24,892 nt of DNA from positions 1 to 24,892 of IMG/VR virus record IMGVR_UViG_3300048838_000632; one strand, written 5' to 3'. This document shows, piece by piece, positions 19,206 through 24,892 of this stretch. The notes beneath the pieces are model-generated. The model made no database searches, was not told the DNA's origin, and was given only the letters and a program-made list of their open reading frames with translations. Both the position numbers and the translations under genes were made by a program. The DNA is from a virus. Within the stretch, counting starts at the first letter, position 1, and the number at the start of each line of letters is the position of its first letter.

Positions 19206-20415
19206 CTTGCCCGGTTGCAGTCGGGAGGGCTTGCCCTGCGCTCAGCGTCATCGTCCCTCCCGACTGCTCAAGCTTGATATACCCCGCCCGCAGGCATCCC
19301 GCGAGGATGTCTTCAAAGTCCCGCATTGACGGGAAGTAGGAGTGAACGTAGCGGTAGGCTTCGTGGTAGGGGACCCGGCCCTTTGAGTGGACAAACCAGA
19401 TAAGCCGCTCGGCGTAGAGCGCATTGTCGGATTTGCCGATCTTCGAGAATACGAACTGCATGTCAGGTTCGAGGTCCGAAACCATTTGATCCGCAATCGC
19501 TAGATGCTCTGCGGAGATTTTCAGGTCGTCGGCGGTCGAGGCCGAAAGCACCATTGCGAGTTTGTGGATATGCGTCTGTTTCCGTGCGATGTAACCGCCG
19601 AAGCGGTCGTCGTCAAGGCTGGTGTTCCGCACGGTGTAGTGCTTTTGGTACCAAGCTTCCCCCCATCGAAGGGCCTCCAGTGTGAGTTGCATCTCGCCGG
19701 CAAGGCATGAAATGTGTTCGAGGTCGGACACGAGAGCCGCTGCCATTTCCGTATGGTTTTTCGGGACAGTTTGCCCAGGATAGGCTACGAACTTCGCTTT
19801 CTGATCAGCGTAGACGAACACACATCGGGAAGTAAATCCCCCGCCGATCATGTACTCTGGGAAATTCCCCGCAATCCATGAAGGTGTGGTGCAGGCGATA
19901 AGGTTAATCCAAGGGTTTTCGACGCTATCATTCCCGGAGTGCTTGGTCTTTTTCTCGAAAGTGCCGGGCTTCCCGTCCCACAGCGCCACAAGCAGGTCCA
20001 CCATGTCCTTATCCTGCGGGTTGAGGAGGTTGCCGAACTCGCTGGATTCGAGGGTCAGGGCGGACATGACGTGAACTTCGGAATTGAGCTCGAAGCCTTC
20101 AGTGGCTTCCGCGAAGGCGGAGATTAGCGCCGGCCAAGTCACTACATCCGGACCAAAGCGGATGCCGGGGACCTTGCGGAGAAGGTTCATGGCAATGCCG
20201 GCTGTAGTGGATTTGGAGACGATCCCAGGCGGCGCGACGAGCACGATGTAGAAGTTCGGAAACCACTTGAAATAGGCTTGGTCGATCCAGACCTTTCGCC
20301 GGAGAGCCCCCGCCACGGCAGAAACCCCGGACCAGAAGTACATATGGCGCGGGGCTTCGCCGTAGGAGGCGTAGTCCATGAAGGCGGAAAGCCAGTCAGG
20401 GAATTGGCGGGTCAT
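19195..20415 (-). CDS. DUF3987-like P-loop protein, putative replication helicase/ATPase
   Basis: The protein has 406 residues. The N-terminus (PDWLSAFMDYASYGEAPRHM, then GVSAVAGALRRKVWID) and the strand leading to the P-loop (FYIVLVAPPGIVSKSTT) resemble DUF3987-type phage replication proteins. The P-loop is unusual: Ser replaces the Gly before Lys68. SALTLESSEFGNLL is the likely Walker B region and INLIACTTPSWI a sensor strand. A helicase or primase-helicase role beside the DNA polymerase is plausible but not shown. The ATG at 20415 has GGGAGG 6 bases upstream and overlaps the polymerase stop codon (ATGA); an in-frame TTG at 20421 is less likely. Confidence 0.7.
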   Translation of the reverse strand: MTRQFPDWLSAFMDYASYGEAPRHMYFWSGVSAVAGALRRKVWIDQAYFKWFPNFYIVLVAPPGIVSKSTTAGIAMNLLRKVPGIRFGPDVVTWPALISAFAEATEGFELNSEVHVMSALTLESSEFGNLLNPQDKDMVDLLVALWDGKPGTFEKKTKHSGNDSVENPWINLIACTTPSWIAGNFPEYMIGGGFTSRCVFVYADQKAKFVAYPGQTVPKNHTEMAAALVSDLEHISCLAGEMQLTLEALRWGEAWYQKHYTVRNTSLDDDRFGGYIARKQTHIHKLAMVLSASTADDLKISAEHLAIADQMVSDLEPDMQFVFSKIGKSDNALYAERLIWFVHSKGRVPYHEAYRYVHSYFPSMRDFEDILAGCLRAGYIKLEQSGGTMTLSAGQALPTATGQVKA

Positions 20416-22784
20416 TCGCAACCTCCCCAGCTCTCGTTCGAAGTCTTAACTCCCACCGGGATTGTCAGCGGGTCACCGTCATACGGCAAAGGGATTTCCG
20501 CTGCCGCAACGATCCGCCGCACCATCCAATCCCCGAGGTGGGTCGGGAACTGCCCCGCAAGGCTGTCATGCACCTGGAGCAGGATCTGCACGTCCTTCAG
20601 TTCATTGTAGATTTTGACATACGCGCGATTGATCAGGCACGCCACGGTGGATTGAGGAATCCATGCGGCGGCTTGGTTGAAGATTGTCCCCTCAATCCGG
20701 TCGAAGAAATAGCACCGATACCCGAAAACATTCTGAACCATCCTGCGCTTGTACACTTGGTCCTTGAGATCGTCTTGCCAGCGCTTGATCTTCGGGAACC
20801 GCCCGAAATACCACTTTTGTGTTTGCTCGGCTTCGTGCACGCCTAGGCCGAGGCGCTCGGCAAGCCCTTTTGCAGTCCCGAGGTAATTCGTGCCATGAGC
20901 GAAGGACTTGAAGGTCTGCCGCCGAGGGTCGCGCTTGGTGATTGAAGGGTCGTGGTAAAACTCCTTGGCAATTTCAGTATAGGGGTCGAGGCCTTCTTTG
21001 AGCATTGCCTTGAACTCCGGCTCGTCCGCTTCCCAGACCACGATTCGGAGGTCCGCCGAGGACAGGTCAATGTCGAAGAAAGTCATCCCTGGATCGGGGA
21101 TAAACAGACTTCGAACGTTGGGCAATTCGAGGTCTGCGGAGTCGCCTCCTTTAGGGATATTTTGTAAGTTGAGGCCCGATCCAAAGGCGTTTTTGGAGGA
21201 GGAGAAACGGTAAGTTTCAGTCCCTGCGATGTTGAAAGAGCATCGCATGCGCCCATCAACATCGAGTGGAGCTGACACGAAGGTCGAGAGGAATACACCA
21301 AGGCTACGGAGCTCAGACACTTTTTTAACGAGTGGTAGCAGGATAGGTTCTCGTTCAGCGAGAGTTCGCAGCGCTTCGTCATTACAAGTAACATTACCAG
21401 TCTTTCGATCCAGTACTGGCTTTTGCCCGAGCGAGTCATAGAAAAGCTCCTTCATCTGGACAGGGGATTTGATGTTCAGCGGCATGCCGACAACATCAGT
21501 AACCCACTGCTCGCGCTTGGCGATTTCCTCCTGGAGTGTGAAGGCAAACTCCGCTCGCCGCGCGGTGTCAACACGCAGCCCGCGGTTCATCGTTTCGAGG
21601 ACAGGCCAGAAGAGTTCCTGCTGGAAGTCATGGACCTCTCGGAGTTTCATTGCGTCGACTGCAGCTTGTTGCGCGTCATCCACTTCAAAGGTGATAACGG
21701 CGTCTTTGCAGTTGTAGGTCCAGAGCTGGTCTTCCCCGGTTTTCGCATCCCACTCCTTCCCCTCGTCTTTCCAGTAGAGATGGTGCTCGCAGTACATCGA
21801 GGAGAGGAAGTCGAGACCTTTCGGGAGATTGGAGAACAGCACATGCTGCGCGAGCATTGTGTCCCGGTGGAGTCTGGGCAGGAAATGCCAATGCCGCCAG
21901 ATGTACTGCGCGTCGTAGAGGAAGTTCTGGCCGATGACCTGACAATTCGGGTGGATTAGAACTTGGTAGAGGGCGAAAACGATTGCGGCTTCCTGCTCGA
22001 CCGGCCAGTACCCATCCGCCCGCTCCATGCACATTAGTGGGATGCAAAGAGCCTCCCGCGATGACCATGCCACGCCGATGCAGGCAATGTGCCCGGCGCG
22101 CGTTTCGATGTCAACTGCGAGTTTCCCTTCACGGGCCTGGAGCTGCGAGTACAACTGAGAGAGGATTGTCAGTACGGTGGAGTAATCCGGCCGGATTATG
22201 AATTGATAATCCGGCGGAGAATACACCGCCGTTTTCGCCTCTTTTACCGCCCTACGCAGGTCCTGCACCGCTATCTGCCTCCACGACCATTGCCGCAGAA
22301 TCGCCGCTGGTGGGTAGACCGGAACGACCTTCGGGGCGTAGTCAAGGGCCAGGGGGAGGTCGGTCTGCATCACCGACCCCCGCCACGAAGTCACCCCCCA
22401 TTTCCCTGTCAAAGCCCACAGCGCTGTATTGCCAAGGGCGATGACCAGATTCGGGCGGCACATTTCGATCTCGCGCTTGAGAAGTTCAATCCCGTCCCTG
22501 ACGCAGGGGAGCACGAATTTATCCCGAAAGATGACGTGCTGTCCCGTAATGTCTTTCTTTTTCGCTGCGATGAAGGCTTCGATGGAGTTCCCTGGCGGCC
22601 GGATGCGGACTACGTTGGTCAGAAAGGAGGCCGACCGCGAAATACCAGCTTCGCCGAGCATTTTGGAAAGCTCCTGCCCGGCGAAGCCGACAAACGGCTC
22701 TCCGCGGGTAACTTCCTGCTCCCCAGGAAATTCCCCGACAATCATGATCTTCGCCGGGCATGGACCGACTGGTCTAACTTCCAT
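20412..22784 (-). CDS. Uracil-DNA glycosylase / family A DNA polymerase fusion
   Basis: The protein has 790 residues. Residues 1-185 match family 4/5 uracil-DNA glycosylases (GEFPGEQEVTRGEPFVGFAG at 17-36). At the second catalytic motif VYPPAAIL (156-163), Pro stands where the family has His, and only three Cys (9, 94, 109) could bind an Fe-S cluster. The 3'-5' exonuclease looks intact: Asp225/Glu227 (DIET), Asp291 and Tyr357/Asp361. The polymerase has motif A DLSSADLR (Asp573), motif B with Arg622, Lys626 and Tyr634, and motif C HDS (739-741). Asp578 replaces the usual Glu steric gate, and His630 occupies the E. coli Phe762 position. It probably replicates phage DNA; glycosylase activity is doubtful. 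GGAGG lies 6 bases before the ATG. Confidence 0.93.
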   Translation of the reverse strand: MEVRPVGPCPAKIMIVGEFPGEQEVTRGEPFVGFAGQELSKMLGEAGISRSASFLTNVVRIRPPGNSIEAFIAAKKKDITGQHVIFRDKFVLPCVRDGIELLKREIEMCRPNLVIALGNTALWALTGKWGVTSWRGSVMQTDLPLALDYAPKVVPVYPPAAILRQWSWRQIAVQDLRRAVKEAKTAVYSPPDYQFIIRPDYSTVLTILSQLYSQLQAREGKLAVDIETRAGHIACIGVAWSSREALCIPLMCMERADGYWPVEQEAAIVFALYQVLIHPNCQVIGQNFLYDAQYIWRHWHFLPRLHRDTMLAQHVLFSNLPKGLDFLSSMYCEHHLYWKDEGKEWDAKTGEDQLWTYNCKDAVITFEVDDAQQAAVDAMKLREVHDFQQELFWPVLETMNRGLRVDTARRAEFAFTLQEEIAKREQWVTDVVGMPLNIKSPVQMKELFYDSLGQKPVLDRKTGNVTCNDEALRTLAEREPILLPLVKKVSELRSLGVFLSTFVSAPLDVDGRMRCSFNIAGTETYRFSSSKNAFGSGLNLQNIPKGGDSADLELPNVRSLFIPDPGMTFFDIDLSSADLRIVVWEADEPEFKAMLKEGLDPYTEIAKEFYHDPSITKRDPRRQTFKSFAHGTNYLGTAKGLAERLGLGVHEAEQTQKWYFGRFPKIKRWQDDLKDQVYKRRMVQNVFGYRCYFFDRIEGTIFNQAAAWIPQSTVACLINRAYVKIYNELKDVQILLQVHDSLAGQFPTHLGDWMVRRIVAAAEIPLPYDGDPLTIPVGVKTSNESWGGCE
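22186..22219. repeat. Dispersed 13-8-13 palindrome, copy 5, in frame inside the UDG-polymerase linker
   Basis: TCCGGCCGGATTA (22186-22198) and TAATCCGGCGGAG (22207-22219) flank the 8-base spacer TGAATTGA, with two mismatches and one wobble. An extra partial right arm (TAATCCGG, 22183-22190) abuts it. On the minus strand it encodes about residues 189-200 (SPPDYQFIIRPD), exactly between the glycosylase and exonuclease domains. Confidence 0.75.
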
Positions 22785-23045: not shown

Positions 23046-24416
23046 TTAGAAGAGCGCGGGCTGTTCCGCTTGCCGGAGATCCTCCAGGCGCTTGAGCGCG
23101 ATCCCGTAGTATTCCGCTTCCTTTTCCAGTCCAACAGCTTTGACCTTGTAGGTATGGGCCGCAGGGAAAATTACCCCCGTTCCAGCGCAAACGTCAAGGA
23201 CTTCGTCCCCTGGCCGTACACTGCGCTGGAGAAGGTTCTGGAACAGCGCAACAGGCTTTTGTGCGCCGTGACCGAGGTTGTCGTCGCCGGATACTGCCAC
23301 AACATCAGGATAGATATGCGTGACGGGCTTTTTCCCCTTGATCGCGTAGAGAATGATTTCGTACTGGCGGCGCGGTCCCATGTCAGGGAGAGGGACTCGG
23401 CCGGAATTGAGCTTATGGACGACCAGCGGCGTGCGGAAGACATACCATCCGGCGGTTTCCATCAAGGACTTGAGTTCATGAAAGCGATCGAAATCGCAAA
23501 ACACGTAGGCATGGGCTTGGGGTTTGGTGACGGCGAAGGAGAGCGGCGCAAACTCCCGCATGAGGGCTTGCCAGGTCTCGTAGGAGTCGTCGTATTGATG
23601 GGTGATGCCAGTGAGCTTTCCCGCGGCATCGCCGAAACCGTCCGCCCCCATGCCATAAGGCGGGTCAGTCAGGATCACGTCGAACCGGGCTTGTGCTTCG
23701 TGGAGCTTCATCCACTCACGGAAATCCGTCTGAAAGAGTTGGTGCTCGCCGGCATTGAAGGTGGCGCCGACCGTTGCCGCAAGCTTGATGTTGCGCTGCC
23801 GTTCTTCCTCTTTCCGCAAGAGCTTGAAAGCCTCGTCGGCGGACTTCGCTTTGGCGACGACAGGATTGTCAAGATGTTTTGCGACGAGGATTTCCTTCCG
23901 GACGGTGTCTTGATACCCGCCGTCGCGGCGACCAGTAAGCTCTTCGGCAGTGTCGGCGACGGTCTGGGCGGGGGGAGGAGTAACCCGTTGTGCGGCAAGC
24001 GGGAGTTCCACGTAGGCCTGCTCCTTTTGCGCTTGCCGCAGGGCGTGGAGGCGGGCAACTGCCGCAGCGTGCTCTTGCCAGGTGAGGTCGCGACGCTTGA
24101 GGTTTTCGTCGAGTTCGGCTTCTTCGGCTTCGAGGAGGGACAGCGAGCCGAGGTCCGTGAAGGGAACGTAACCGTTATCGAAGACCTCACCGTTGTAGGT
24201 GAATTGCCCGCCAAGAGCGAAAATCTCCTCGATAGCCTTGAGCCTGCGCTCCCCGGCAACAAGTACCCAATCCTCGCCTTCTCGGCGGAGGACAGGGGCG
24301 TGAAGGAGACCTCGATCCTCGATGGAGTTCCTGAGTTCCTGCATCGCCTCGGGGTCGAATTCCTGGCGCTGGCGGTTGGCTTTGATGATGATGGAGGAGA
24401 GCTGGACTGTGTTCAT
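23046..24416 (-). CDS. ParB-like domain fused to DNA methyltransferase
   Basis: The protein has 456 residues. Residues 1-100 are a ParB/sulfiredoxin-like domain (NRQRQEFDPEAMQELRNSIE, GERRLKAIEEI with GERR at 55-58). Residues about 105-215 are a charged helical linker. Residues about 220-456 are a methyltransferase of the circularly permuted beta order: the catalytic motif DPPYGM at 251-256 precedes the S-adenosylmethionine-binding motif VLDVCAGTGVI at about 406-416. DPPY indicates N6-adenine or N4-cytosine methylation; target-recognition residues are not obvious. The ParB domain may bind or cut DNA, or hydrolyse a nucleotide. No restriction enzyme is adjacent, so protection of phage DNA or replication marking is likely. 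The SD is weak. It is the first complete gene of the minus-strand operon seen here. Confidence 0.9.
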   Translation of the reverse strand: MNTVQLSSIIIKANRQRQEFDPEAMQELRNSIEDRGLLHAPVLRREGEDWVLVAGERRLKAIEEIFALGGQFTYNGEVFDNGYVPFTDLGSLSLLEAEEAELDENLKRRDLTWQEHAAAVARLHALRQAQKEQAYVELPLAAQRVTPPPAQTVADTAEELTGRRDGGYQDTVRKEILVAKHLDNPVVAKAKSADEAFKLLRKEEERQRNIKLAATVGATFNAGEHQLFQTDFREWMKLHEAQARFDVILTDPPYGMGADGFGDAAGKLTGITHQYDDSYETWQALMREFAPLSFAVTKPQAHAYVFCDFDRFHELKSLMETAGWYVFRTPLVVHKLNSGRVPLPDMGPRRQYEIILYAIKGKKPVTHIYPDVVAVSGDDNLGHGAQKPVALFQNLLQRSVRPGDEVLDVCAGTGVIFPAAHTYKVKAVGLEKEAEYYGIALKRLEDLRQAEQPALF

Positions 24417-24520: not shown

Positions 24521-24644
24521 GCGGGTGATGGTACGGCATGGGCGCGCATTTTTAACGCCCCACAATGCCCATATTTCGTCCGGGTGAAATGCGCTAAAAG
24601 CTTTTGACTCACGGGCAAGTGCCTTTCGTGACTGGACTAAGAGG

Positions 24645-24711
24645 AGCCCCGGCAGGACCGGGAGGCGGCGGCCTCGCGACAAGAAACTATGGGGATCGCG
24701 GTGCCGGGGCT
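24645..24711. ncRNA. Structured element A: 10-bp helix closing two hairpins
   Basis: AGCCCCGGCA (24645-24654) pairs perfectly with TGCCGGGGCT (24702-24711). Inside, GAGGC (24662-24666) pairs with GCCTC (24671-24675) across a GGCG loop, and GCGA (24676-24679) pairs with TCGC (24696-24699). The strand of expression is unknown. It may be part of an RNA leader, a small RNA or a DNA origin. No coding frame is convincing here. Confidence 0.5.
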
Positions 24712-24812
24712 TGAAGGGAACGGACTCTCTAGCTCAGATTGCGCCTGTATCACTGCCCGGCATCTGAGACGTTCAAGGTGATTTACGTCGAGTCCGCTCT
24801 CTTCAAGCGCCC
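24706..24812. ncRNA. Structured element B: helix of about 21 bp closing a branched loop
   Basis: Positions 24706-24727 can pair with 24790-24812 with one bulged G (24809), one A-C mismatch and one G-T wobble. The inner part CGGACTC (24721-24727) pairs with GAGTCCG (24790-24796), enclosing a 76-base span. Two hairpins fit inside: CTCAGAT (24733-24739) with ATCTGAG (24762-24768), and about ACGT (24769-24772) with ACGT (24785-24788). The 76-base span and 7-bp stem recall a tRNA, but no T-loop or anticodon arm is present. Confidence 0.5.
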
Positions 24813-24835
24813 CCGTATAGCCGGGGGCCACGCTT
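24805..24835 (-). terminator. Hairpin C, possible terminator for the minus-strand gene ending at 24850
   Basis: GCCCCCG (24809-24815) pairs with CGGGGGC (24822-24828) around a 6-base loop, and AAGCG (24805-24809) can pair with CGCTT (24831-24835) around a small bulge. It lies 15 bases beyond the stop codon of the partial minus-strand gene. No T-tract follows, so termination efficiency is uncertain. Its left side is shared with the outer part of element B. Confidence 0.5.
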
Positions 24836-24849
24836 AAACCGCCGGCCGA

Positions 24850-24892
24850 TTAGACGCGGGCCACGGCCTTGACTTCAGCGTAGATGTTCTCG
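24850..24892 (-). CDS. 3' end of a truncated minus-strand gene
   Basis: Reading the minus strand from the window edge gives ENIYAEVKAVARV followed by a TAA stop at 24852-24850. Only 13 residues are visible, which is too little to name a family. It points the same way as the ParB-methyltransferase gene and would be the preceding gene of the same early operon, separated by the structured 433-base region. Confidence 0.5.
   Translation of the reverse strand, partial: ENIYAEVKAVARV

Follow-up and report, generated by a model that had tools for sequence, protein, structure and literature searches.

A conserved three-domain structured element and a separate hairpin behind an SSB-like gene of a probable bacteriophage fragment

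The 24,892-base viral record analysed here over its whole length (the window) is probably a fragment of an uncultured bacteriophage genome. Its terminase and head genes are encoded by the plus strand, and the minus strand carries those for replication. The region of interest is a strongly structured gap between two early minus-strand genes. A preliminary description had reported three strong RNA helices (A, B and C) of no known family in this gap, read them as mutually competing and hence typical of a switch or attenuator, and named covariation among relatives and translation of the region as the points to be checked. The gap lies between the following genes:

24850..24892, minus strand: 3' end of the gene of a putative SSB-like protein with an OB-fold (stop codon 24852-24850; the window ends inside the gene)
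23046..24416, minus strand: ParB_N-N6/N4 DNA methyltransferase gene, downstream of the gap (Pfam PF02195 and PF01555)

The upstream gene is near-identical and complete in a related contig (L002/L031), and its product of about 150 residues had no Pfam and no PHROG match. Since its AlphaFold2 structure was predicted confidently (mean pLDDT 90.6) and the best solved match of the model was the OB-fold ssDNA-binding protein PrgE (8s4t; E-value 9.7e-05, probability 1.00, TM-score 0.55-0.59), the protein is referred to as SSB-like. In the product of the downstream gene a ParB N-terminal domain is fused to the DNA methyltransferase, and in most relatives this gene adjoins the hairpin D introduced below. 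Further along the minus strand (20412-22784) a second fusion gene encodes a family A DNA polymerase with an N-terminal uracil-DNA glycosylase superfamily domain (residues 6-175), followed by the 3'-5' exonuclease and pol A domains.

Related loci were fetched using the methyltransferase and the SSB-like protein as two queries. The set used for comparing C, B and A comprised eight sequences, namely the window, L031, L032, L033, L035, L036, L037 and the circular genome MW202489 (L030, i.e., MW202489.1), and L031 was 96% identical to the window over the element (9 substitutions in 208 nt). A DNA similarity search against isolated phages returned no long match, the hits being chance-like pieces and one match of 45 bp, which led to MW202489; the matches in genome collections were two MAG contigs of ~45 kb, which may be binned phage. 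Because MAFFT alignments of the full trio misplaced MW202489 and L037, the arms of C and A were assigned by hand before changes were counted, a procedure that biases the counting towards the structure. The ORF annotated in MW202489.1 as hypothetical protein UOF77843.1 (5603-5902) overlies the structured gap and is probably spurious.

Read on the minus strand, the gap contained the following structures immediately after the SSB-like stop codon, arranged in the order C, B, A in the window and its seven relatives:

24809..24828, minus strand: domain C, a 7-bp hairpin (GCCCCCG-GCUAUA-CGGGGGC) present in all eight sequences
24710..24807, minus strand: domain B, a stem of 7 bp, a 1x1 mismatch and 10 bp that closes a branched loop (arms 24801-24807/24710-24716 and 24790-24799/24718-24727)
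24749..24782, minus strand: inner helix of B, in which 24778-24782 pairs with 24749-24753
24645..24711, minus strand: domain A, terminator-like, with a 9-10 bp stem, a structured loop of 47 nt and a weakly U-rich tail (UCCUCUUAG)
24660..24665, minus strand: anti-Shine-Dalgarno-like motif CCUCCC, situated in the A loop

In the window the minus-strand fold (z -4.26; 0/200 dinucleotide shuffles as good) was favoured over the plus-strand fold (z -2.64; 3/200), and the plus-strand reading was rejected for its weaker fold, although this does not hold in every relative: the two strands of MW202489 and of L031 were about equal when compared with shuffles. An ORF crosses C, B and A in the window but is interrupted by a stop codon in the 96%-identical L031, which argues that the region is not translated and agrees with its earlier description as a non-coding intergenic element.

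Covariation was clearest in the stem of B, where seven pairs and 14 cells carried both-sided changes among the eight sequences, a level reached in 0/500 shuffles, and 96.8% of cells were paired (28-61% in slid controls). Its inner helix differed between the window and L031 by a compensatory change of U24781-A24750 to C-G. On the hand-assigned arms, C had both-sided changes relative to the window in six of the seven other sequences, and the perfectly paired stem of A was likewise retained in the relatives with changes on both sides. The stems proper of all three domains were retained in 8/8 sequences, and the domains abut throughout (linkers of 0-2 nt or overlaps of at most 1 nt). The check for covariation thus came out in favour of structure, also for D, and the sequence comparison indicates that C-B-A is a real, conserved, structured element of three contiguous and compatible domains. 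The helices reported before were recovered as such, being real and better than shuffles: A has its 10 perfect pairs (24645-24654 with 24702-24711), hairpin C is present at its place (24809-24828), and the helix of about 21 bp given for B corresponds to 22-nt arms (24706-24727/24790-24811) that are 86% complementary, of which the outer pairs are not conserved.

What did not withstand the comparison was the proposed exclusion of one helix by another. The conserved stem of B, ending at 24807/24710 in the window, overlaps A by 1-2 nt and is separated from C by a linker of 1 nt. A switch or attenuator with A, B and C as alternatives would draw on the outer extension of B into A and C, which makes 3/4 pairs in the window and L031 but 2/4 in every other relative, and since all three contiguous stems are at the same time kept in all sequences, the competing-helices reading was rejected. 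Mutually exclusive pairings were not conserved among the eight sequences, and we regard a switch or attenuator as very improbable.

The absence of a known RNA family was confirmed with Rfam 15, which gave no match at the gathering cut-off in the window and 16 relatives and chance-level matches at lax thresholds. A search with a model of domain B found no members outside the close lineage, so B belongs to that lineage. ARAGORN and Rfam were negative for tRNA and tmRNA. A tRNA-like origin of B was considered and dropped, these searches being negative and homology to tRNA-like stretches of L053, L058 and L073 not demonstrable. The latter stretches (L053 3491-3584, L058 ~3467, L073 ~3613) lie in the same gap and have either a T-arm (GGTTCGAATCC) with an acceptor-like stem and CCA or a D-arm-like sequence (GCTCATGGGTAGAGC), and neither ARAGORN nor Rfam called them.

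Domain A resembles intrinsic (Rho-independent) terminators with 3'-UTR-derived sRNAs in its stable G+C-rich stem of 9-10 perfect pairs, in the U tract of relatives and in its position behind a coding gene, but differs in having a structured loop of 47-59 nt (47 nt with a predicted inner hairpin in the window) instead of a short one and two more contiguous domains upstream. A simple terminator scan made no call for A because of this large loop. The U tail was good in L032-L036 and MW202489 (UUUUCUUUU, UCUUUUC) but the window (UCCUCUUAG) and L031 (UUCCCUCAA) have a poor one, so that termination in the latter two could be weak. More distant relatives had an ordinary small terminator or another large-loop one at the same place. 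Large-loop hairpins with T-rich tails were also found elsewhere in these genomes, apparently by chance, and A by itself is therefore weak evidence; a general detector for large-loop terminators was abandoned as too unspecific genome-wide.

We consider it probable, with moderate confidence, that C-B-A is the structured 3' UTR and terminator of the SSB-like message and that D is a separate cis element behind it. The minus-strand fold bias, the direct succession to the SSB-like stop codon, the U tails in relatives, the ordinary terminators at this place in more distant ones and the covariation of B, C and A argue for such a 3' UTR, and the covariation, single copy and constant location of D for the separate element, whereas the poor U tract in the window and L031, the chance large-loop hairpins, the scan that passed over A, the antisense fold in MW202489 and L031 and the restriction of the B model to the close lineage argue against this reading. 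We infer that an early replication message ending with the SSB-like gene would be transcribed from the minus strand, with C-B-A as its 3' UTR and transcription end. C, B and A would fold in succession and probably stack end to end. The large-looped A would serve as intrinsic terminator, and B and C upstream of it could form a compact 3' end that 3'-to-5' exonucleases enter with difficulty. The trio would then be a phage terminator region that has grown into a multi-domain RNA in one lineage, with relatives keeping a plain terminator.

The loop of A also bears on whether C-B-A might be released as a small regulatory RNA whose CCUCCC pairs with the Shine-Dalgarno sequences of host or phage messages. 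Of 18 clusters of large-loop hairpins, 14 contained CUCC, where dinucleotide shuffles predict 7.3; this enrichment was noticed post hoc in a hairpin set that includes some chance hairpins. By inspection CUCC lies in the apical loop of an inner hairpin in many relatives (e.g., UUUUCUCCCUG). The motif is common but not universal, the L032-L036 group being without it. This pattern is suggestive of an anti-Shine-Dalgarno role like that of the alpha-r14 sRNAs, which have the motif CCUCCUCCC in unpaired regions of three hairpins (PMC10746234), and a terminator would supply the 3' end of such an RNA. The alpha-r14 or 'cuckoo' sRNAs of alphaproteobacteria (NfeR1 and relatives) share with A highly variable stems and an unpaired CCUCC-type motif. 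They carry CCUCCUCCC unpaired in each of their three hairpins, whereas here A alone has CCUCCC and C and B are without it, which places C-B-A outside their definition; it is moreover phage-located and without Rfam match. With the motif in one of three domains and no promoter or processing site known, we consider a released anti-Shine-Dalgarno RNA rather unlikely.

Just behind A and outside the region covered by the preliminary description, a further structure was found that was better conserved than the C-B-A region:

24608..24632, minus strand: element D, a 25-nt hairpin (UCACG-AAA-GGC-ACUU-GCC-CGUGA)

A covariance model of D (R1) was built from 18 instances; it matched the window, itself a member of the training set, once in the record (E-value 5.5e-8) and found eight members from outside the training set (L053, L042, L106, L059, L092, L060, L105, L082). 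Over 25 sequences 95.5% of cells paired (at most 37% in slid controls) and 40 cells showed both-sided changes (10.7 in shuffles), and the eight held-out matches alone gave 95.3% and 13 cells (4.4 in shuffles). The common form is a bulged 5+3 bp hairpin whose bulge always contains AA and whose loop resembles A-Y-U-U. Exactly one R1 match per record was obtained in 19 of 24 phage records and none in five, those of L049, L058, L026, L024 and L078, although by inspection L049 has a divergent version (GCCCGAGGTAATTACCCGTGC). A pattern scan of all viral contigs gave 57 exact matches, of which five scored strongly with the model, and the remaining ones therefore look like chance; four of the five were checked or already known to be neighbours of an SSB-like gene or a methyltransferase gene, and the last one, L130, represents the same contig as L040. 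D was mostly located between the end of the upstream operon and the methyltransferase gene, at 90-200 nt from the start of the latter, and in many cases it immediately follows a terminator. The distance was ~390 nt in L036, and an additional small ORF seems to separate D from the methyltransferase in L060 and L084. On these comparisons D is most likely an independent conserved cis hairpin, separate from C-B-A.

Under the favoured reading D would be a cis hairpin ahead of the methyltransferase-polymerase operon and would probably bind a protein, whether in read-through RNA, in single-stranded DNA or as a palindrome in duplex DNA. Wobble cells were tried as a guide to the folding strand and did not decide (4 GU vs 3 CA). 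One tentative possibility is that a phage regulator recognises D as RNA, for antitermination or translational control, on transcripts reading through into that operon: the bulged 5+3 bp form of D is that of protein-binding hairpins and MW202489 has further terminator-like hairpins after D, but D lies behind a terminator instead of ahead of it, comes without a candidate binding protein, and has wobble counts that do not separate RNA from DNA. Phage nut/put antitermination sites are likewise small cis hairpins preceding an operon; D differs in being a single hairpin without a recognised boxA and behind a terminator. In the coat-protein operator hairpin of MS2-type RNA phages, about 5 bp, a bulged A and 2-3 bp are capped by a four-base loop. 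D is similar in form, but most copies have a three-base bulge, and the likeness seen is one of form; no such coat protein is known for this dsDNA phage. The D version closest to that operator is a subvariant with a single bulged A, missed by the model, which was seen behind the terminator in L043, L044, L046, L047, L049 and L072 (e.g., GCTTG-A-GGT-ATTT-ACC-CATGC, in L047 as RNA GCUUG-A-GGU-AUUU-ACC-CAUGC).

The single copy of D per record and its fixed place inside a replication gene cluster, together with wobble counts that do not favour a one-stranded RNA, would also suit a replication origin or single-strand initiation site for phage replication proteins in the gap, above all at D. No array of initiator-type repeats was seen, however, and the eight genomes showed no consistent GC-skew switch at the gap or D, a feature not strictly required of phage origins, so that we hold an origin to be distinctly improbable. 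A broader proposal, which we consider unlikely, is that a large, uncultured tailed-phage group combines a new single-copy D, read by a phage protein, with 3' UTRs in which the terminator loop serves as an anti-Shine-Dalgarno decoy; if this were true, D would control the methyltransferase-polymerase operon or the start of replication from a fixed point of the replication cluster. As a compact, strongly covarying, single-copy hairpin without known family, D may in any case mark a point of regulation or replication in a whole phage group from which very few isolates exist.

Two further sequence motifs were observed in this part of the gap. The motif CGCAATCGGCG occurs a few tens of nt downstream of D in L037, L051, L053, L073, L064 and L106, is followed by AGCTT in most of them and forms an imperfect inverted repeat, and GGGGCATTCC(C/T)GCG recurs before the methyltransferase start in several lineages.
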